Virus record (IMG/VR): IMGVR_UViG_3300006737_000004
Location: 1 to 56,474 of that record
Length of the DNA: 56,474 bases
Source of the DNA: a virus
Reading direction: 5' to 3' (one strand)
Part shown: positions 11,211-34,127 of the stretch, one piece after another
Numbering within the stretch: position 1 is the first letter of the stretch
Layout of the letters: each line of letters starts with the position of its first letter
Notes under the pieces: model-generated
What the model was told of the DNA's origin: nothing
What the model saw: only the letters and a program-made list of their open reading frames with translations
Database searches by the model: none
Program-made: the position numbers and the translations under genes

Positions 11211-11373
11211 TTGTCCACTTGCTCCTTGCTTCCTCAAGAGCTAAATTAAATTCTGCGTTGTCTGCCAGAAAATCCAAGAGGTCTGCTAACTCATCTGCAT
11301 AGTCATCATACAGACCACCCTCTCTAAAGATGCTTGCCCATCTCCTAAAAGATTCAGGGGGTATCATTCTCAT
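11194..11373 (-). CDS. Small acidic helical protein, 59 aa
   Basis: A 60-codon frame directly after the integrase. The start codon forms an ATGA overlap with the integrase stop, and AGGAG lies about 8 bases upstream, good evidence that it is translated. The product (RRWASIFREGGLYDDYADELADLLDFL in the first half) is acidic, helical and Leu/Asp-rich. The small size and location behind an integrase bring an excisionase to mind. However, excisionases are usually basic winged-helix proteins and this is acidic, so I make no such call. Confidence 0.7.
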   Translation of the reverse strand: MRMIPPESFRRWASIFREGGLYDDYADELADLLDFLADNAEFNLALEEARSKWTNERLH

Positions 11374-12254
11374 TCTCTTTCTCTCCTTTCTAGTGCAGAC
11401 TTAGCTGCTTTTAAACTGAACTTGTTGTATGGGTTAAGGCTACTCACATTCTTATGCCCTGTCACAGATTGAATTGCAAGGTGGTCTACCTCACTCTCAA
11501 TCATCTGAACAATAGCAGTCTTACGTAAGTCACCCACCTGTAGTTCATCAGGTAGCCCTGCAATAGCCTTAACTTCTCTGAGTGCATGGGTCATCTGAAT
11601 AACTGTCATCGGTCTGTAGACTGTACCCTGTGGCCTGTGATGGGGTACTACAAATGGTTGGAAACTCCAGTCCTGTTCCTGTTGCACTAGCATCTCGTAC
11701 AGATTATCAGGGATAGGTAGTTCCACTGTAGCACCACGCTTGGTTTGAGTTATTGTTACCTGCTTGTTCTCAAGGTCAACATCTTCCCATAACAAATTAC
11801 GTATGTCAATTGGACGTTGACCCCACTCATAACACATCAGCACAATCAGTCCAATGTTTCTCCACTCAAACTTTGTGAAGGCTACATCTAAGAACGACAT
11901 GACTTGACTGTGTGTCCAGACGACAGATCGTGGAGTGCTGCTACGTTTCTTTACTCGTGCCATTGGGTTGTACGGTATGTAGTCCAACGAAACTAGGTAG
12001 TTCATGAGTACCGAAAAGATACGAGCGCAGTGGTTGGCGTTAGAGGTTGAAGTTTCTAGCTCCCAGATATCATACATCTCAGTACACATAACGACATTGA
12101 TATTCTTAATGCTGATATTACCGAGTATCCTACCCATGATAGGCATTGAGCAGAACGAATGCATCTTATTTTCGTAGCCCTTTTGTGAAGAAGCTGCGAG
12201 TGATGCAAACTGTCTACTGTTCAAGTATCTTTCTGTTGCTGTTCTAAGTCTCAT
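11370..12254 (-). CDS. int: Tyrosine recombinase / phage integrase
   Basis: 294 aa with an N-terminal SAM-like core-binding domain (about 1-100) and a catalytic domain. Catalytic residues: Arg147 (QRPIDIR), Lys173 in the beta-hairpin, Arg244 (GDLRKTA), His267 (TGHKN) and nucleophile Tyr276 (LNPYNKF). The usual His of H-x-x-R is Gly here, a tolerated variant. It would insert the phage into a host attachment site. It lacks an obvious arm-binding domain. Its promoter region (12255-12374) carries two ACTTAAGT palindromes shared with the late promoter. No adjacent tRNA fragment is visible. Confidence 0.92.
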   Translation of the reverse strand: MRLRTATERYLNSRQFASLAASSQKGYENKMHSFCSMPIMGRILGNISIKNINVVMCTEMYDIWELETSTSNANHCARIFSVLMNYLVSLDYIPYNPMARVKKRSSTPRSVVWTHSQVMSFLDVAFTKFEWRNIGLIVLMCYEWGQRPIDIRNLLWEDVDLENKQVTITQTKRGATVELPIPDNLYEMLVQQEQDWSFQPFVVPHHRPQGTVYRPMTVIQMTHALREVKAIAGLPDELQVGDLRKTAIVQMIESEVDHLAIQSVTGHKNVSSLNPYNKFSLKAAKSALERRERE

Positions 12255-14977: not shown

Positions 14978-15472
14978 TTACTGCAACAGTCTTCCCACCG
15001 ATTGTACAAAAGTATCAATGCGCTGAGACTGCTCACGTTTCTGCTCTTTGAGATCCTCAATCTGACCACGCAAGTCCATGAGCAGTGCCTTCAAGTCACC
15101 ATTCTCATTCTTGACCATGCGATAGTTTCTATTCACTGCCTTGGGTGTGACCTGAGCCGTTATCATATTGAAACCACGATGCTTGTTGCGATAGCCCAAG
15201 TCTTTACGCCACCCACACACAACAGGTGCACGCACACCATACTTTTCGGTAACCTCATTACCTGTGTGATGCTCATAGTACTGGCACACCTCATGCTTGA
15301 ATGACAGTACATACTTTGGATAAGTGTTAGGAACATACCCAACTCTTGACGCAAGATGAGGTACAGTACTCATCGGAATACCAAAGTTTGCAGATGCCTC
15401 TTTCTGAGTGTGGTTTTCCAGATACTTTACCACTGCGAGACACATTGCGTCAGAATATTTTTTACTAGCCAT
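14978..15472 (-). CDS. Double helix-turn-helix DNA-binding protein with coiled coil
   Basis: 164 aa. Two transposase-type HTH units can be read. The first is QKEASANFGIPMSTVPHLA at about 38-56. The second, at about 92-112, contains TEKYGVRAPVVCGWRK. A linker with basic residues follows, and residues about 125-160 form a Leu/Gln/Glu-rich coiled coil (LRGQIEDLKEQK) that should dimerise it. This is the only protein in the early arm with clear sequence-specific DNA-binding features apart from the integrase. It is thus the best candidate to bind one of the repeated operators. Two hairpins lie upstream. It is not similar to CI or Cro. Confidence 0.7.
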   Translation of the reverse strand: MASKKYSDAMCLAVVKYLENHTQKEASANFGIPMSTVPHLASRVGYVPNTYPKYVLSFKHEVCQYYEHHTGNEVTEKYGVRAPVVCGWRKDLGYRNKHRGFNMITAQVTPKAVNRNYRMVKNENGDLKALLMDLRGQIEDLKEQKREQSQRIDTFVQSVGRLLQ

Positions 15473-16935: not shown

Positions 16936-17454
16936 TTATGCGGCTTGCTTTGCAGATGCAATCGCTTTCACTTGTGCCATAGGCGTGCCAGTATCCTTTG
17001 AAAACTTTTCCATGTAGTTCCAAAACTGTTCGCGAATTTGCTCTGGTGTTTTTGGTTCGGTCTCTTTCTTGACCACGGGAAACGCTTTCTTGAAAACATC
17101 CGAATTTATGCGAACCTTGCCAAGAACACGCAAGCCCTCGATCTGGTCAGTGTTAGCGCCGCCATTATCTGACATTTTGAACACCACACCAGATTTATTT
17201 TTGGAGTTAAATTTCCATTCCACACCTTCAAAAACCTTAGCCATGATACGCTTTAAAGGTGCGGCATATTGCAAGCGGTCGCCCTCTATTACTTTGATGA
17301 TACCAGATTTGCGACCGTTGGTGATGCAAAGCAATTTTGCAATCTCTGTAGTGTTGCCGTTATTGAATTGCTCAAAAGCCCGCACAACAGTTGGCAGAAA
17401 ATTATACTCTGCGCCGCGTACATTACTTGCCCAATTTGCTACATTATTTGACAT
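16936..17454 (-). CDS. First early gene, hypothetical 172-aa protein
   Basis: No family recognised. It is the first gene on the minus side of the control region and is followed by its own terminator, as expected for an abundant immediate-early protein. The product has a helical N-terminus, a basic middle (EWKFNSKNKSG) and a C-terminal helix with Ala/Lys. It is mildly basic overall, which fits DNA binding. AGAGGA precedes the ATG. Base composition looks less AT-rich than neighbouring small genes. It could be a regulator or a host-takeover protein. Confidence 0.65.
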   Translation of the reverse strand: MSNNVANWASNVRGAEYNFLPTVVRAFEQFNNGNTTEIAKLLCITNGRKSGIIKVIEGDRLQYAAPLKRIMAKVFEGVEWKFNSKNKSGVVFKMSDNGGANTDQIEGLRVLGKVRINSDVFKKAFPVVKKETEPKTPEQIREQFWNYMEKFSKDTGTPMAQVKAIASAKQAA

Positions 17455-17480
17455 GATTTTTTCCTCTCATATGTCATAAA

Positions 17481-17530
17481 TTGCCAGTTAATACAACACA
17501 CTAGGATTAATGTGTTGTACATGCTGGCAA
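17481..17530. promoter_or_regulatory. Compound 50-bp inverted repeat (nested hairpin)
   Basis: TTGCCAG (17481-17487) pairs with CTGGCAA (17524-17530), an outer 7-bp stem. After a 4x4 internal loop, TACAACACA (17492-17500) pairs with TGTGTTGTA (17511-17519), an inner 9-bp stem with a 10-base loop. Symmetry is exact. It lies 27 bases before the ATG of the first early gene, so it would be in its leader or promoter. Possible roles are operator, leader structure, origin element or recombination site. Confidence 0.8.
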
Positions 17531-17553
17531 CATGCAACCCTAATTGTTACGGT

Positions 17554-17579
17554 CTCAAAACGCTATCGCATATTTTGAG
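17554..17579. other. Second hairpin, CTCAAAA/TTTTGAG
   Basis: CTCAAAA (17554-17560) and TTTTGAG (17573-17579) form a perfect 7-bp stem with a 12-base loop, just beyond the compound hairpin. It has no clear T-run on the minus strand beyond the stem itself. It may be part of the same regulatory or origin structure. Confidence 0.5.
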
Positions 17580-18014
17580 CAATTTTCGCGGGTATCCTAT
17601 TGCGTTTGCTGATCACTGGCCTAAGCTGTAAAGGCACTCTCAAAACTCCAACTATATGTTGGCACGTTGAGGCTAGTCACAAACGGCTAATTTTTTGTAT
17701 CGGATTTTCTGTCATTATTTGCGCCGCCCTACTCAATAGGGTTGTCACGCTAGGGGAAATGCAGGTCATAAACCCCGTTCAGTATTTTTTCGACTAGGCG
17801 CAATACTTACATCTTGCGTAAACCATTATCGGGATTGTCAAGCCCTAGGTCTAACCCCAGTCAATTTCTAGCAATGTCAAATAGCGTTGATCGGTTACCC
17901 CTACTTTAGCCTAGTCAACTGAGCGCCGACCGTCTGGCTGTTTTGGGCGATTTCTTGGCCTATAGAGTGCTCATATATCCAAATGAATGTCAATGACTAT
18001 GACGGATAGGTTTC

Positions 18015-18803
18015 CTATACTAAAGGATAGGTGCTTATTTTTTTTAATAATAGCTCGCGCGAGAAAATCCGACTCTGAAAACCAAAACAATTTTTGACCG
18101 TTTGGTAAAATATAAAAAAGAGTATATACCAAAGGATAGTCAAGTGCTATTTAGTATCTAGTTGGAGTCGAGTTTTCCAAACGGATATAAATGTTCTCAG
18201 TCAAGAGAAATAAAGTATAGAATGTTCCAAGAATGTTCTAAATTGTCCAGTGTTTGTTTACTGTTTGTTCTCTGCTATTTTTTTAGGTCAGTAGTGCTTA
18301 CCTAGATAAGTCATTGATTTCATTAGAAAAGATTTGGACAAGACGGAACAAATAGGGGGAAAGGTTTTTTAGGTAGGGTAGCGACCAAAAACAGGTTTCG
18401 GCGCTGTACGGGCTTAAAATCGGGGTCTAGTATAGGTGAGGGATAGGTCTGCTATACTTATTATCCCGTCAACTATCCAGAGGTATAGGTTCTAAACTAT
18501 TTGGTATAGGATTATACTAATGGATAGCCAGTGTATCCCAAAGGATAGGTGATGTGACCATAAGATTAGGGGGGTGGTGTCTATATATAATGAGTTATCC
18601 GAAAGGGGTGCTTCACTACTACGAACGGATATGTGATCACAAATTGGTATAGCTTTGGTCTATACTAATGGATAGGGGCAATGTCTTATTGTATATATAC
18701 GCTAGTAATAACAGGTAGTTAGCTAATAATAAAGAGTATGTCGGCTATACGAAGGGATAGGAAGGCTATACTTAGGGGGGGCATGAGCCATACGGGGGTA
18801 TAG
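18015..18803. repeat. Operator-like array: CTATAC-N4-GGATAG quasi-palindromes
   Basis: Sixteen-bp dyads with the consensus (C/T)TAT(A/C)C-N4-G(G/T)ATAG. They lie at 18015-18030, 18124-18139, 18473-18488 (reverse orientation), 18512-18527, 18533-18548, 18660-18675 and 18745-18760. Weaker copies lie at 18766-18781 and 18788-18803. The 4-base spacer is mostly TAAA, TAAT, CAAA or GAAG. Shorter 13-bp forms (CTAT-N5-ATAG) occur at 17997-18009 and 18497-18509. The array looks like binding sites of a dimeric regulator or an early-promoter set. Confidence 0.85.
18054..18063. other. Perfect palindrome CTCGCGCGAG
   Basis: A GC-rich 10-bp palindrome in the middle of A/T-rich sequence (T8 run on one side, GAAAA on the other). 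It stands out by composition. Possible protein site or origin element; nothing more can be said. Confidence 0.4.
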
Positions 18804-18939
18804 GGTAGCGTATACACCCATTATGACAGAGATGGGGAAATTCAAGTCGTTAACCACAGCAGTAATTACCCATGTTTTCCCATATAATCCCTACTATTAT
18901 CAAATAAATCAGAATAATAGGCTACTTCTGTTAAAGGAG

Positions 18940-18957
18940 CTGTAGGAGGGGCTACAG
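18940..18957. other. Hairpin CTGTAG-GAGGGG-CTACAG
   Basis: A 6-bp perfect stem (18940-18945 with 18952-18957) and a 6-base loop. TAGGCTAC occurs close by on both sides (about 18918 and 18975). It lies between the operator array and the late promoter. No T-run follows, so it is not a clear terminator. Confidence 0.4.
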
Positions 18958-19116
18958 TAACCTAACTTCTGTAGGCTACCTGGGGCTATAAAAGTTCTTT
19001 CACCCTATTCCTGGAGCTTCTGAGGGAGTCTCAGGGGTATTTCTACCTGTTATCCTAAATTTTAAGGGCGTCTTTTGTATCTTCTCTATAAAATTACAAA
19101 TAATAGAAATAAATAC

Positions 19117-19144
19117 TTGACAAGAGGGGGTACTTTAGTATAAC
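19117..19144 (+). promoter_or_regulatory. Late-arm promoter TTGACA-N16-TATAAC (P1)
   Basis: A consensus -35 TTGACA (19117-19122) and TATAAC (19139-19144) are 16 bp apart. Transcription would start near 19151, right at the first ACTTAAGT operator. This is the best sigma70-type promoter in the divergent region and points to the structural arm. A phage RNA polymerase gene is absent, so host polymerase must be used. Confidence 0.75.
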
Positions 19145-19151
19145 ATAAGTA

Positions 19152-19223
19152 TATACTTAAGTATCCTTAAGGATTTTATTATTCTTTTATATTATTATTA
19201 GTACTTAAGTAGTACTTAAGTAT
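19152..19223. promoter_or_regulatory. Triple ACTTAAGT operator cluster downstream of P1
   Basis: The palindrome ACTTAAGT occurs at 19155-19162 (within TATACTTAAGTAT), 19203-19210 and 19214-19221. The last two are 11 bp apart, that is one helical turn, which favours cooperative binding. A related CCTTAAGG palindrome is at 19165-19172. The same 8-mer marks the integrase and the 3.0-kb promoters. Confidence 0.8.
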
Positions 19224-19283
19224 TATAGCACTTTGTCACTTTTAAGATGTACAAATTTTTTTTGTCGTCCCCTTTGAAAAGGG

Positions 19284-19312
19284 TTGACTTTATGGTTACT
19301 ATGGAGTATAAC
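19284..19312 (+). promoter_or_regulatory. Second late-arm promoter TTGACT-N17-TATAAC (P2)
   Basis: TTGACT (19284-19289) and TATAAC (19307-19312) are 17 bp apart; the -10 context AGTATAACTAG matches that of the capsid promoter. The first gene starts with ATG at 19317, only five bases after the -10 box. A transcript from P2 would be leaderless or begin inside the gene and chiefly serve downstream genes. Confidence 0.65.
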
Positions 19313-19316
19313 TAGC

Positions 19317-19580
19317 ATGTCTAAACCAAAAATGTATTCTTCAGACAGAGTTCTGGAAGAATTCTATAGTGCACTAGCAAGTGAAGACGAAGGTAGACTT
19401 CGCAGAGTGCACATACCAAGATCAGATGTATTTTATGTAAGAGAAAAAATATATCAAGATACAGGCATCAAGTACACTTTAGATCACGTAGAGAGAGCTA
19501 TGTATCTAGAAGGAATGCTTGAGGCCCGTGATGTATTTGAACCTCATAGAAAGAGAAATTATGGCTCACACGATAATTGA
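19317..19580 (+). CDS. First late-arm gene, hypothetical 87-aa protein
   Basis: The ATG at 19317 (MSKPKMYSS) is preceded by GGAG. The protein is charged and helical: LEEFYSALASEDEGRLRRVHIPRSDVFYV in the centre, then EKIYQDTGIKYTLDHVERAMYLEGML. The second half resembles a DNA-binding or dimerisation helix pair, but no family can be named. It overlaps the small membrane protein gene by 20 bp. Its location directly at P1/P2 makes it the first product of the plus arm; a regulatory role is possible. Confidence 0.65.
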   Translation: MSKPKMYSSDRVLEEFYSALASEDEGRLRRVHIPRSDVFYVREKIYQDTGIKYTLDHVERAMYLEGMLEARDVFEPHRKRNYGSHDN

Positions 19581-28115: not shown

Positions 28116-28324
28116 AACTGGTCGTGAATAATACTTTAAAACCTTTTGTAAATAACCCTGAGCTATATAACCCTTTCCTTGAAGAGATTGATGAAAGGAT
28201 TATGTTTGCTCAGATAGCTCTTGAACAATCTAGAGAACCCGATGAGTTGTTTAGATTACAGGGTGAGATACGTGCACTCAGGTCACTATTAAGATTAAGA
28301 GATAAAATCAATGGCAGCTCCTAA
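28112..28324 (+). CDS. Hypothetical protein, 70 aa
   Basis: A small helical protein, ATG overlapping the portal stop (ATGA). It has a hydrophobic start and a coiled-coil-like C-terminal half (ALEQSREPDELFRLQGEIRALRSLLRLRDKI). Proteins with this QGE-x-RALRxLLxLRD helix are commonly coded after the portal of marine podoviruses. It may be a head-assembly factor. It overlaps the giant virion gene by 14 bp. Confidence 0.65.
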   Translation: MKLVVNNTLKPFVNNPELYNPFLEEIDERIMFAQIALEQSREPDELFRLQGEIRALRSLLRLRDKINGSS

Positions 28325-31300
28325 TACATCTTTAAGACCTAAAGCTAGGCCTGAGTCTCAGACAGAGCGTATGCTCAAACCTAAGACTATAGCTCAAGTT
28401 AAGGAAGACTTGCAGCAAAAACAACTTGCAGCAGATTTTGGAGATGTTGAATTTAGAGCCGATTTAGAACCACAATTTTCTTGGAATCCTCTAGCTAGAC
28501 TAGGGTACGATCCGAAGAAAGCTAAAGTCTTACCCTCTAGCCTTCTCGAACCTAACAATGCGTATGCAATTCCTGATAGTTCAACTGTAGAACGTATTAC
28601 AAATGCATCAGAATTTAAAAGAAGTGACCCTTTAGAGGTTGAAAGAATTAATCCAGGAGATGTAGTTACTAAAGGTCCAACTGCAGTTTCTCCTGTCTGG
28701 TCTCACGAATTTACTCATAAAGGTATTGAAAGGTTAAAAGAATACTTAGATGAAGATCCAGAATTTTTTAAAGGGAAGTATGGAGAAAAAACTTTTAATT
28801 TAATTAATAAAATTTCTAAAGGGGGTAAAGAAGCAAAGGATGGTAATGAACGGGTCACTGAATTTTTTGATTACTTAGAAGACACTATTAATGTTCCTGG
28901 ATATACCGTTTCAAAAAAACAAATAGACAAAAGTTTAGAAATTCCTGAGATTAAACCAGAAACGCAAAAACTTTTAAAAGAAAAAGATTTTAATGAAGAC
29001 GGTCAGATTTCTGCTATGGAATTTGCACAGGATACTTTTCTTGCTAATTCCTCTTGGGGAGGAGATAGAGAAGAGTTTCAAAAATACCTTAAGTCACCTA
29101 ATAAGAAAAGAAAAAAATATCTAAAAAGTTTATTTCCAGGTCTTATGGGAGCTGTACAGGCAGCACAAGATTTACTTGAAGCTCAAGGAGAAGTGCCAAA
29201 GGTTAAGAAAAAAACTTTAAGTTTTTGGGAAAAGGTAGCAAAACATTTTGGATATAGTAGATTAGGTTTTAACGAAGGTGGAGATGTAATAGGCCCAAAG
29301 TCTGAGCTAGAAAGACAACGAGAAGTAAATATAGCTGAACAAATGGCTACTCTCCCTAAGAAAAAAGATGAGTATAAACCATCCGTAGATCCTCAGAAAG
29401 AAGAGATTATAAAAAAGTATAATCTAGACGGTGCTAGATCTGGTTGGCAAGTTGGACCTACTACATTTCATACTATTTATGAAAACCTTCCAACTAACTT
29501 TAGACTTCTTACAGAGTTTATCCTTGGTAAAGATACACCTATCACTATGGCAGATTTTACTAAAGATGAACTAGTTTCAATGATAGCTCTTTCAGAGAAT
29601 CAGGAAAAAAATAAACTTAACCTTAAAAACAGAAAGTTAAAAGATCAACCTGAAAATGTAACAACAGTTACTACTTATAAACTTAAACCTACTGATAGGT
29701 ATCCTGATTGGGTTGAAAGTAATCCATACTTTAGAGCTATGGCACACAGTCTTTTTAGCCCTGAATACCAAGTACGTACAACTTTAGGTAGGTATGATAC
29801 AGAAGATACTCCTTCAAGTCTCATAGTAAAAGATGCATACGATATGAATATTGGACAAAGGAGCTTACCTAAACTTAGTAACCGTAAAGATTTAGCAGAA
29901 GTGTTAGACTACATGCGAATTGATCCTGAAATGGCAGGAGAGTTTATAGCAAATGTTTTCAGACCTAACCCAGAAGATTCAAGAAAGATTGACTTAGTAA
30001 TACCAAAAAGAAAAAAGGTTGAAAATTTTAACGAAGGTGGTGATGTATCAGCTCAAATGCAATCTTTGATGATACCTTCTGCAGATAACGATATTCGTCC
30101 AGAAGATTATGTTCAGTATAGAGAAGATAACTTTACTCCAGCAAGCTTTGCAGAAGACTCTTGGGAAGATACGAAGAAAAGATTTATGGATGCAGGTAGG
30201 ATTGATGTAAATCCCGATGATCCTGCTATCTTCACTGCATATAAACGTGCTGTTGATTATCTTAAAGATACAGGGCTTGCAGGTTTAGGTTTAGCTGATA
30301 CTGCATTTAAATATGCTGTAGGTTCTGCAGCTCAGGTTATGCCTACAGAAGCTTTAGAAAAACGTATGGCTAGAGATCTTTACTCTATGCCAGAAGCTTT
30401 TGCTGGAGCAGCAGGTGCTAGAAGCCTAACTCAACTTGATGATGCAGCAGATGCATTTCTTGAAGGGTCTCTGCACGTAGCACGTAAAGCAGGTCAAATG
30501 AAACCTGACCCCAATACACTTGCAAGTTTTGCTGGAGCTGTGCCTCCTACATATATACAGAGAGATACTCCACTTTCTGAAATGGGAGAGTACCAACTTG
30601 ATTATTTTCGTCAAGTAGAACCCACCGAAAAAACAAAACTGAAAGACTTAGAACTCCTCCAATTTAGAGAACCTATTTCAGAGTTTATAAAAAACTTAAC
30701 TATACCTAAAAAAGGTATGATAGGATCAGAGTTTTTAAACCAAATAAAAAAGAATCCCTCTATCCCAGAGACTTCTTTACAAGAGGGTATTATAGATCCC
30801 AGTAAAAGATATACTAAGGAGGAGTTACTTGGGGCCATAGGAGTAGGAAAAAATACTCAAGGCACTTTTAGATCTGCTGCAAATATTTCTCCTTATAGAA
30901 TAAAACAATTTGAAGGCAATCAAAGACAAACAAAAGATGCAGGGTTTCAAGGTGGAAGAGAGGTTGAGTATTTTGATATACCCATAGATACGACTATTGG
31001 ATATCCTGGGAAACGTTTTAGGGCTAATTATCAACATTATAGTCCAGAAACTTTAGTTCATGTTAGAGGTTCTATTGTAAGTCCTTATAGACAAATTGAG
31101 TTTTCTCCTAGAAAAATAAAAGAGTTTGACAAGATTATTGGGGGTAAAAATTACTTACTCGGAGAAGAGCTTCAGTCTGACCTTCTTACTAAAGGTTATG
31201 CAAAACCAAATAATTTTTTTGACGCTGTATTTTCTGAAGCTACAAAAAACTGGGAATCTGCTAATCTTGTTACTTACCAAGAAGCTCTTGGTGATATAGA

Positions 31301-34127
31301 TAAAGAAATTAAAAAGGTTTTAAAGCTTCTTGATGATCCATCTTCAGCCCACCTTTCTCCTGGAAGAGTTTCCAGTAATCCTAAGTTTTATCATTTTTCT
31401 TCAGAGTACACCAACAAGGTAAACTTTGAAGATAGAAAGAGGGGATTAAAAGGTCTTGCAAGTCTAGATAGAATTGATTATGACGAGCTTTCAGATCTTC
31501 TTATTAAAACAAGTGCAACTGAAAAAGACATAGATCAGGTTTTTGAAACGTTAAAAGCTGATGCACTATTAGAACCAATACTCCTAAGAAAATCTGCAAT
31601 AGATTCAATGTGGGAGAATGATCCTGAAGCTGCAGTATTCTTTGAAGGTGGGCTAGACGACGTTGATTTTCTTACTCACGACGAGCTTGTAAATTTACCA
31701 GAAGTTAATTCAATAAATGATAAAGGTATAAAAGAAGACTTTTTAAACTATCATAATAAACGGCAGCAAGCTCTTGACAGTGCAACTGAAGAATACTTAA
31801 ATTTTTTACAGTCTCAAATAGATAAGTTAAAAATAAATGATACAATAGATGCTAAAGATTTAGCCGAACTTCATGAAAATATGATAATGGCTCAGTCTTA
31901 TACTCCAGATACTTCAGAGATTGGCCTACCTCCAATACGTAAAAATAAACAAGCTGTAGATGAAGCACTTAAAGTTCTTATTGCCAAAGCAGCACAATCA
32001 GGTGTAGACAAAATTGTCATACCTCCAGCAAGTCGTATTGCTTTAGCTAGGGGTAGAGATCTTGAGAAAGATAAGGGTGATAGGTTTTATAGAACTTATG
32101 TAACTGACTTAAACAAATCCTTAAAGGAGCTTGAAGAAAACTACCCTGTTGTAATACACAGGGATGTTGAAATGCCTTATGGTATCAGGGGAGAAGCAAG
32201 TACTGATGAGCTTATAGGATTTGAAGATATAGATCAAAATCTAGGTTTTGATGCGGAAAATGACCCAGAAATAACAAATCTCCTTAATGAAATGGCAGGA
32301 GATATTGATATGGAAGCTATTGGTCAACAAATAACTGAATTAGTAGATCAAAACTTAAACGATGTCAATCAAGTTGTAGTAACTGAACCCTTAGGTAATG
32401 AACTTCTACCTCCTAGTCAAAGGAAAAAAACAGTTGATGTAAGTGACAAAGGTACAATTATAGATATCTCAGAACTAGTTAATAGATTTAAAGTAGAACA
32501 ACCAAGACAGTTTGCCCAAGGAGGCGTAGCAATGAATAAACAAATGGAAATGGCTTTTATGCAACAAGGTGGATTGCAGGATGACGGGATGAATCAAGAT
32601 CCTGTATCTGGTAATGAAGTACCCTCTGGGTCGATGGCTTCAGAAGTACGAGATGATATCTCTGCCCAGTTGTCTGAAGGTGAATATGTTGTACCTGCTG
32701 ATGTTGTTCGTTATCTTGGAGTAAAACACTTTGAAGACTTGAGAGATAAAGCTAAAAACGGACTTAATAAAATGGAAACTGATGGTCGTATTGGTGGAGA
32801 ACCCGTACCTGTTGGTGGACCTAAAGCAGGTCTACGACCAGATGAGATGCAAGAAATACAAAAGATGTTTGAAGGTGGTATGGTAGCTGGAGCTGCAAAT
32901 GGAGCAGACTTTAGTTTCTATAATCCTACAGGATCAACTGTAGAAGAAGCTGTAACCACTCCTGGACCTGCAGGTAGACCTATGTACAGTGGAGAGTTTA
33001 GCTTTGAGCAACCTGGAGCTGGTTTAGCTACACCACCACCTGAAGTAACAATACCTGAAACACCAGAACAAAAAGCTGTAACACTGTATGGACCAAGTGG
33101 TGAAGTTATAGCTTTGATGCTACCTAGAGACCAAACTATGTATGACCAACTTATTGCTCAAGGTTATGGACTTACAGCACCACAAATAGAAAAAGAAAGA
33201 AGTGATAAAGATAAAGATAAAGAAGTACAAACTGATCCAAATGCTTGGATGGATAAGTATGACTATAATAATCTAGACAATTTAGCTACACAAACAGAAG
33301 ATCTTTTAACTGCTGAAAAAGGTTTTATAGGTAAAGTACTTGGTGGAGGGGTTATAGGCATGTTTATTTCTGCCAGTAATGCAGCTCAGGCAGCAGCTAA
33401 CATAGCAATTCTTAAATCTAATGGACAAGAAGCTGAGGCAGAAAGATTAAAAACTTTGTGGGATGGTTACGTAAAACAGAATAAGATTGACGTACTCCCC
33501 AGTTTCACTTATAATGGTGATCAATTAACAAGACAAATTGTACAAAATAATCCAGGAAAAGACCTTGGACTACAGTTTGGAGATACGGATGTAAACGGAG
33601 ATCCAATCTTTAAAAATCAAAAAGACTTTGATGACTTTGCTCAAAGTGTTGCACCAGAAGGTATGACTTTTATTCCTGATAAAGGGAAATACATAAGGCC
33701 AGAAGGAGTATCTTATGAACCAGAAGAGCTTCCAAGACCCAAAGCTAGACCTACTTCTTATCAACCCCCTAAACCTGAAGTATCAGATTCTTCAGCCTTA
33801 CAAACAGGTCCAGAAATAAGAGGCAGGAAACGACCTCAACCCAAAACTGCACCTATTGATGACCCTCTTGAACAAATACAGGACGCTGCTAATAGAAAAA
33901 GCAGAGAAGCTCATCTCCCTGGCCCCCGTAAGTCAGATATACCTTCTTCTTCTTCTATAGAAGATAGGACAGATATAGTTTCAGAATCTTTAGCTGATAA
34001 ACAAGCAAAACAAGCAAAACAAAAAGCTATAAAGAGAACAGAAGAAACTCTTAAAGCTATGGAAAGAGGTGTTCAAAGGGGATTTAAAAAAGGCGGCTTG
34101 ATGAAAAAGAAAAAGAGTAAAAAATAA
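28311..34127 (+). CDS. Giant 1938-aa virion-type protein with HExxH and EF-hand motifs
   Basis: A mosaic polypeptide. It starts with LRPKARP (8-14). A zinc-metalloprotease-like HEFTH lies at 132-136, followed by NERVTEFF. A perfect EF-hand loop DFNEDGQISAME lies at 226-237 with Ca ligands at positions 1, 3, 5, 9 and 12. Repeated FNEGGDV elements are near 321 and 575. A domain with GEELQSD (about 951) and later GVDKIVIPPAS resembles the EIQSD module of phage polyvalent proteins. SEGEYVVPADVVRYLG is near 1455, and PRPKARP is near residue 1800. The end is KKGGLMKKKKSKK. It lies between portal and scaffold, so it is probably a head-internal or ejected protein. Confidence 0.85.
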   Translation: MAAPNTSLRPKARPESQTERMLKPKTIAQVKEDLQQKQLAADFGDVEFRADLEPQFSWNPLARLGYDPKKAKVLPSSLLEPNNAYAIPDSSTVERITNASEFKRSDPLEVERINPGDVVTKGPTAVSPVWSHEFTHKGIERLKEYLDEDPEFFKGKYGEKTFNLINKISKGGKEAKDGNERVTEFFDYLEDTINVPGYTVSKKQIDKSLEIPEIKPETQKLLKEKDFNEDGQISAMEFAQDTFLANSSWGGDREEFQKYLKSPNKKRKKYLKSLFPGLMGAVQAAQDLLEAQGEVPKVKKKTLSFWEKVAKHFGYSRLGFNEGGDVIGPKSELERQREVNIAEQMATLPKKKDEYKPSVDPQKEEIIKKYNLDGARSGWQVGPTTFHTIYENLPTNFRLLTEFILGKDTPITMADFTKDELVSMIALSENQEKNKLNLKNRKLKDQPENVTTVTTYKLKPTDRYPDWVESNPYFRAMAHSLFSPEYQVRTTLGRYDTEDTPSSLIVKDAYDMNIGQRSLPKLSNRKDLAEVLDYMRIDPEMAGEFIANVFRPNPEDSRKIDLVIPKRKKVENFNEGGDVSAQMQSLMIPSADNDIRPEDYVQYREDNFTPASFAEDSWEDTKKRFMDAGRIDVNPDDPAIFTAYKRAVDYLKDTGLAGLGLADTAFKYAVGSAAQVMPTEALEKRMARDLYSMPEAFAGAAGARSLTQLDDAADAFLEGSLHVARKAGQMKPDPNTLASFAGAVPPTYIQRDTPLSEMGEYQLDYFRQVEPTEKTKLKDLELLQFREPISEFIKNLTIPKKGMIGSEFLNQIKKNPSIPETSLQEGIIDPSKRYTKEELLGAIGVGKNTQGTFRSAANISPYRIKQFEGNQRQTKDAGFQGGREVEYFDIPIDTTIGYPGKRFRANYQHYSPETLVHVRGSIVSPYRQIEFSPRKIKEFDKIIGGKNYLLGEELQSDLLTKGYAKPNNFFDAVFSEATKNWESANLVTYQEALGDIDKEIKKVLKLLDDPSSAHLSPGRVSSNPKFYHFSSEYTNKVNFEDRKRGLKGLASLDRIDYDELSDLLIKTSATEKDIDQVFETLKADALLEPILLRKSAIDSMWENDPEAAVFFEGGLDDVDFLTHDELVNLPEVNSINDKGIKEDFLNYHNKRQQALDSATEEYLNFLQSQIDKLKINDTIDAKDLAELHENMIMAQSYTPDTSEIGLPPIRKNKQAVDEALKVLIAKAAQSGVDKIVIPPASRIALARGRDLEKDKGDRFYRTYVTDLNKSLKELEENYPVVIHRDVEMPYGIRGEASTDELIGFEDIDQNLGFDAENDPEITNLLNEMAGDIDMEAIGQQITELVDQNLNDVNQVVVTEPLGNELLPPSQRKKTVDVSDKGTIIDISELVNRFKVEQPRQFAQGGVAMNKQMEMAFMQQGGLQDDGMNQDPVSGNEVPSGSMASEVRDDISAQLSEGEYVVPADVVRYLGVKHFEDLRDKAKNGLNKMETDGRIGGEPVPVGGPKAGLRPDEMQEIQKMFEGGMVAGAANGADFSFYNPTGSTVEEAVTTPGPAGRPMYSGEFSFEQPGAGLATPPPEVTIPETPEQKAVTLYGPSGEVIALMLPRDQTMYDQLIAQGYGLTAPQIEKERSDKDKDKEVQTDPNAWMDKYDYNNLDNLATQTEDLLTAEKGFIGKVLGGGVIGMFISASNAAQAAANIAILKSNGQEAEAERLKTLWDGYVKQNKIDVLPSFTYNGDQLTRQIVQNNPGKDLGLQFGDTDVNGDPIFKNQKDFDDFAQSVAPEGMTFIPDKGKYIRPEGVSYEPEELPRPKARPTSYQPPKPEVSDSSALQTGPEIRGRKRPQPKTAPIDDPLEQIQDAANRKSREAHLPGPRKSDIPSSSSIEDRTDIVSESLADKQAKQAKQKAIKRTEETLKAMERGVQRGFKKGGLMKKKKSKK

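Follow-up and report, generated by a model that had tools for sequence, protein, structure and literature searches.

A helically phased dyad array in the divergent control region of a 56-kb virus contig and the exchange of its site sequence among relatives

Phased arrays of operators or iterons are a known kind of control element. The iterons of phage lambda have A-rich centres and a spacing of roughly two helical turns. At the lambda origin, dimers of the O protein bind repeated dyads (PMC5043065), which adjoin an A+T-rich stretch. The stoperators of Cluster A mycobacteriophages are 13 bp long, asymmetric, distributed over the whole genome and bound by a monomer (PMC9283540), and their sequence differs between relatives together with immune specificity (PMC6550527). 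Here, an array of 16-bp dyads is described that lies in the control region of the virus contig IMGVR_UViG_3300006737_000004, which was analyzed at its full length of 56,474 bases (the window). The control region (17455-19316), delimited with a map of open reading frames (ORFs), is non-coding, has a length of 1.86 kb and a GC content of 38%, and separates leftward early genes from a rightward operon; this layout is kept in relatives. The new part is the sequence of the sites and its exchange between relatives at a kept layout: a literature search with the motif strings gave nothing relevant, in agreement with the preliminary description of this DNA, which knew of no named regulator for the site, and the search revealed no description of such a layout kept under class exchange in this marine group.

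The array is real. With the motif CTAT(A/C)C-N4-G(G/T)ATAG (CTATMC-N4-GKATAG) and at most one mismatch, eight dyads were found, all of them within 18015-18803 and none elsewhere in the window, for which shuffles of the whole window predict 0.49 sites. Shuffles of the control region itself, a check that had been proposed together with the preliminary description, contained a mean of 0.033 sites and a maximum of 2 in 2000 shuffles, and an average of about 0.03 thus stands against eight observed. The unsoftened pattern of that description, with three mismatches allowed, occurs 59 times genome-wide versus 46 times by chance. This barely exceeds chance, and therefore only the close matches are meaningful, and those are clustered.

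Site 1 (CTATACTAAAGGATAG, 18015-18030, plus strand) matches the motif without mismatch, and site 2 (ATATACCAAAGGATAG, 18124-18139, plus strand) has one mismatch. Site 3 (18473-18488, minus strand; CTATCCAGAGGTATAG in plus-strand letters) has no mismatch and is reversed relative to most others, so that the orientations are indeed mixed, as had been claimed. Site 4 (TTATACTAATGGATAG, 18512-18527) and, 21 bp past it, site 5 (GTATCCCAAAGGATAG, 18533-18548) are both on the plus strand with one mismatch each. Site 6 (CTATACTAATGGATAG, 18660-18675, plus strand, no mismatch) is followed after 85 bp by site 7 (CTATACGAAGGGATAG, 18745-18760, plus strand), an offset that is maintained in relatives, and after a further 43 bp by site 8 (CCATACGGGGGTATAG, 18788-18803, no strand assigned), which has one mismatch and is identical in the nearest relative. 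The original count of seven clear dyads plus two weak ones was therefore right in substance; one of the weak dyads is site 8, whereas the other, at 18766, has a poor right half with three mismatches and was not counted. The shorter CTAT-N5-ATAG words that had been noted at 17997 and 18497 are present in the sequence.

As the motif was discovered in this window, the fair test is its occurrence in relatives. An array was found at the same locus in a contig of the same population with 100% identical proteins (L004), in a near relative (L086/G014) and also in the more distant contigs G001, G007, G008, G016, G018, G019, G020, L015, L065 and L082, and conservation in close relatives, the other check that had been suggested, thus had a positive outcome. 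In 29 sequences, 83 CTATMC sites were located in 53 kb of upstream regions (up to 1.9 kb before the first rightward gene), compared with 7 in the remaining 892 kb. On whole contigs the exact motif was present in arrays only, and a control with the reversed pattern yielded 0.

The anatomy of the sites was analyzed with 120 sites with up to two mismatches from 12 loci. The plus-strand consensus is (C/T)TAT(A/C)C-NAAN-GGATAG, and the arms are not strictly palindromic. Positions 5 and 12 pair almost randomly (A/G 55, C/G 46, C/T 13, A/T 6), and because they vary almost independently, the arms look like independent half-sites rather than a base-paired stem. A comparison of the window with G014, for the seven sites whose alignment is free of indels, showed changes at 3 of 56 core positions versus 7 of 28 tolerated positions. 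The degeneracy of the sites resembles that of protein-binding sites, not that of hairpins. The spacer had been described as fixed at four bases; this applies to its length, but its letters are also non-random, with more A than T on the plus strand in 84 of the 120 sites and more T than A in 27. The A-rich spacer is thus mostly on the plus strand, and therefore the array has a direction.

Distances between neighbouring sites recur between phages, at 21/22, 42/43, 63, 85/86 and 126/127 bp. For 71 spacings from nine loci, the phase coherence at 10.55 bp was R=0.62 with a mean phase near zero, a value whose significance is too optimistic because many loci share ancestry. The best period was 21.2 bp, i.e. 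two helical turns, and when each spacing value was used only once, R=0.46 was obtained (p about 0.001), which is the safer figure. The array as a whole spans 790 bp and consists of sub-clusters phased at 21 bp, but contains gaps of up to 349 bp.

The sequence of the sites is exchanged between relatives. Three contigs without CTATMC sites (L031, L037, L038) have dyads of the ATTCAA type (ATTCRA-N4-TYGAAT or slightly different forms) in the place of the array, as have L094, L102, L104 and L106. AGTTTA-N4-TAAACT dyads are found there in G003, G004, G009 and their relatives, and also in cultured phages, namely five in CRP-9 (22-33 bp apart) and three in CRP-13 (31-32 bp apart), and CRP-2 has TTTGCA-type dyads spaced by 22 bp. 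The ATTCRA and AGTTTA dyads have the same 6-N4-6 build as the CTATMC sites, which they replace or join, and other dyads of this build occupy the locus in further phages. All classes except CTATMC were defined after inspection and tested less strictly. Mixed loci exist as well: L015 contains CTATMC and AGTTTA sites, G002 contains ten ATTCRA and two CTATMC sites, and in G016, G018 and L065 the CTATMC sites predominate with one additional ATTCRA site. Relative to a conserved TGACAGA word, CTATMC sites at -79 match a pair of coordinates, -83/-75, at which G010, G011 and G015 have overlapping ATTCRA sites. The match shows that positions are partly kept while the sequence is replaced, and such swaps offer a natural series for the evolution of regulator-operator specificity. 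It is possible, though somewhat doubtful, that in a large group of marine phages a fixed, phased 6-N4-6 scaffold at one locus has its site sequence exchanged (at least three and probably more classes, with mixed intermediates) under the pressure to escape cross-immunity, and that it is read by a tandem helix-turn-helix (HTH) protein that gains and loses HTH modules. The upstream regions of L193, L188 and L179 contain 14-bp tandem repeats with TATAAGA and dyads similar to TTATGT-N4-ACATAA, together with few or no CTATMC or ATTCRA sites.

Taken together, it is very probable that the array of this marine phage serves as the docking site of a DNA-binding regulator, and it fits a set of protein-binding sites rather than hairpins or promoters of a phage polymerase. 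Three functions had been proposed for it at the outset, i.e. an operator array for a cooperative repressor, early promoters of a modified polymerase and iterons of an origin, and the first of these is the best fit to the exclusive clustering, the 6-N4-6 dyads, the phasing and the exchange of classes. As in an operator array, the copies are clustered at a control region, absent elsewhere and regularly phased on the helix. A cooperative regulator complex that controls the two divergent units is the simplest reading. More specifically, we tentatively regard the sites as operators for a dimeric HTH protein that would form a higher-order complex by cooperative binding to the control region, a plausible assignment that we hold with less than firm confidence. 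Several dimers would then line up along the same side of the helix, in the stretch that separates the leftward early genes from the rightward promoter; the bound complex would determine how the two transcription units are balanced, and it might act as a switch of the immunity or lysis-lysogeny type. The latter role is reasonable because the phage has an integrase and the integration of phage CRP-3 has been proven (PMC6918029). The array thus provides a concrete control site with a candidate regulator, and its sequence predicts which phages share a regulatory class.

The most likely binder, and our first-ranked candidate as judged from sequence analysis, is the phage's own protein of 164 amino acids (aa) with tandem HTH units and a C-terminal coiled coil (14978-15472, minus strand), for which an alignment, an AlphaFold2 (AF2) model, family matches and co-occurrence with the sites were considered; for its assignment to the sites, co-occurrence is the basis. 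The AF2 model (mean predicted local distance difference test score, pLDDT, 78) consists of two three-helix HTH units and a long C-terminal helix. The number of HTH units per family member is one or two, perhaps also three; 14 of 26 members match HTH_Tnp_1 (best E-value 1.1e-7), the match of the window member being marginal. The family also matches Brinker DNA-binding and phage transcriptional-regulator profiles, and 5 of the 26 match a D5-like regulator profile (phrog_323). A fold search of the protein against the PDB gave nothing better than E 0.05, the top entries including other multi-HTH DNA binders. Besides the integrase, it is the sole DNA-binding regulator recognised in the window, in which the search for an HTH_3 (cI/Cro-type) domain found none. 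Without correction for kinship, 22 of the 23 contigs that have three or more CTATMC/ATTCRA sites encode the protein, compared with 6 of the 26 contigs that lack such an array (Fisher 2e-7), and when only phages with a homologue of the first leftward gene are included, the numbers are 22 of 22 versus 6 of 14 (1e-4). Variability is much higher in the genes from the array to the peptidase than in those around them. In L086, the HTH protein is 77% and a 522-aa protein 84% identical to the counterpart in the window, and the first leftward gene belongs to a different family, whereas identity reaches 98% for the first rightward protein and for the integrase, and 97% for the peptidase. In L171 (G023:42009-42515) and L188 (G025:4759-5262), longer frames of 243 and 189 aa contain an extra copy of the HTH domain.

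Other assignments were considered and rejected. A rule by which two HTH domains go with CTATMC and one domain goes with ATTCRA was true for the first eight loci, but is broken by L094, L102, L104 and L105. The first leftward gene (16936-17454, minus strand, 172 aa) is an unlikely binder because its slot is filled by several distinct families of about 170 aa irrespective of the site class; these similar-sized families are exchanged between relatives, and some of them share C-termini. The first rightward gene (19317-19580, plus strand, 87 aa), which is conserved in relatives including HMO-2011, encodes a near-identical protein in CTATMC and ATTCRA phages, and its AF2 model was too poor for use. 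Among genes exclusive to the AGTTTA phages CRP-9 and CRP-13 and the G003 group, none was convincing; the 77-aa protein gp07 of CRP-9 matches all three contigs of the G003 group, but a counterpart is absent from CRP-13. A search for integrated prophages in GTDB genomes revealed only one contig of a metagenome-assembled genome with a relative of the terminase.

Several observations weigh against the HTH protein and a cooperative operator array. The co-occurrence is not adjusted for shared descent, L240 has a CTATMC array and no HTH gene on its 17.6 kb, and the AGTTTA arrays of CRP-9 and CRP-13 exist without the protein. The recognition helices differ much among phages that share CTATMC sites, and in gene trees the site class fits the HTH protein no better than other genes. 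When all arm positions of the closest pair are counted, 10.4% are changed, compared with 9.7% in the flanks. In addition, the array lies upstream of the rightward promoter and ends about 310 bp short of it, and a conserved leftward promoter was not seen in a scan of 24 genomes. The absence of the HTH protein from some array-bearing phages would also be in line with the control of phage gene expression by a transcription factor or a nucleoid protein of the host that binds the sites, in which case the classes would mark hosts. About half of the relatives have a LexA-like GTTC-N7-GTTC word in the region, and therefore host factors may act there. Nevertheless, this explanation is quite improbable, because phages isolated on one host strain have different classes, and contigs of different classes were also derived from the same samples.

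The main alternative, although rather unlikely itself, is a replication origin of the lambda kind, in which the dyads would serve an initiator as iterons. Several features would suit it. The control region is long and non-coding, and quasi-palindromic sites that are phased at two turns and have A-rich spacers mostly pointing one way resemble phased iterons (PMC5043065). The GC skew, which had been suggested as a check, has its cumulative minimum at the control region, but this is ambiguous because gene orientation switches at the same place. The sites form sub-clusters phased at 21 bp, but are spread over 790 bp with gaps of up to 349 bp, which would be unusual for iterons in a compact block, and no initiator was recognised. 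The AGTTTA class occurs both in CRP-9 and CRP-13, which have Cobavirus-type replication (PMC8528129), and in G003, G004 and G009 of the lineage of the window, and polymerase and primase-helicase do not differ by site class. The site class thus crosses replication modules, which argues against the initiator of the module as the binder and weakens the proposal of iterons. Multiple copies with a common orientation, in a region where early transcription must start, could also be expected if the dyads were promoters, of the hairpin kind or not, that are used by a phage RNA polymerase or by a modified polymerase of the host. This is highly improbable: a stem is not kept, as positions 5 and 12 are mismatched in 68 of the 120 sites, family scans of most window proteins revealed no RNA polymerase or sigma factor, and the conserved promoter is an ordinary sigma70-like one outside the array. 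A search for PF00940 was negative, but has little weight since the controls were silent too. A hairpin or RNA explanation was likewise discarded, as Rfam matches none and the stem is not maintained.

The rightward promoter (19117-19146, plus strand) has the sigma70-type sequence TTGACA-N18-TAACAT. All of the 24 genomes scanned have a counterpart, a TTGACA-N17/18-TATAAT-like promoter with a spacer of 16-18 that precedes the first rightward gene by about 190-280 bp. Directly past it, at 19150-19220, there are TACTTAAGTA repeats, and related AAGTA/TACTT repeats are similarly placed in most relatives examined. The interval between array and promoter contains a conserved block (18826-18860, TGACAGAGATGGGG...GTTAACCACA) that is also present in ATTCRA and AGTTTA phages. 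Inside the array, at 18629-18644 (no strand assigned), lies a second palindrome, ATATGTGATCACAAAT, with the core TGTGATCACA, of a class common to many relatives. Many relatives and isolates have one to four copies of TGTGATCACA in their control regions, frequently at distances of about 30 bp, and the core is rare elsewhere. The sequence GTTCCAAGAATGTTC at 18224-18238 is an alphaproteobacterial LexA-type direct repeat (GTTC-N7-GTTC). This repeat occurs four times in the window versus 1.3 expected, which is of modest significance, and in the relatives that have them, LexA-like words lie at positions -585 to -1110 relative to the first rightward gene.

The ORF map of the window shows a leftward gene block at about 0-17.5 kb and a rightward block from 19.3 kb on. 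The leftward block encodes functions of replication and metabolism, i.e. ribonucleotide reductase, DNA polymerase, primase/helicase, thymidylate synthase and a tyrosine integrase (11370-12254, minus strand) that is consistent with a temperate life style. The structural genes are within the rightward block, including one for a giant protein of 1938 aa (28311-34127) without a match in Pfam. The closest terminases are those of the Roseobacter phages CRP-13 and CRP-9 (about 82%), that of HMO-2011 reaching 72%, and the closest DNA polymerase is that of CRP-6 (55%). A metagenomic genome group has been described that combines CRP-6-like replication genes with HMO-2011-type morphogenesis genes and, in most members, an integrase (PMC8528129), and the gene combination of the window is the same.

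In comparison with known systems, the array resembles the repressor sites of Cluster A mycobacteriophages (L5, Bxb1) in that many copies of a short site are present mainly in one orientation and the site sequence varies between relatives. In contrast to Cluster A, however, the sites of the window are 16-bp dyads, helically phased and confined to one intergenic region (18015-18803), and no repressor of the Cluster A family was identified in the window. With the lambda origin the array shares repeated dyads, which in lambda are bound by O protein dimers (PMC5043065), but its sites are spread over 790 bp of a non-coding divergent region instead of lying in the initiator gene, and their class is independent of the replication module. 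The candidate binder has a weak profile match as its link to the T5 D5-like regulators (phrog_323). It is similar to tandem HTH proteins of the HTH_Tnp_1/Brinker type in that it has a C-terminal helix and at least one, perhaps as many as three, HTH_Tnp-like domains, whereas the transposase domain of HTH_Tnp_1-type transposases is not seen in it.
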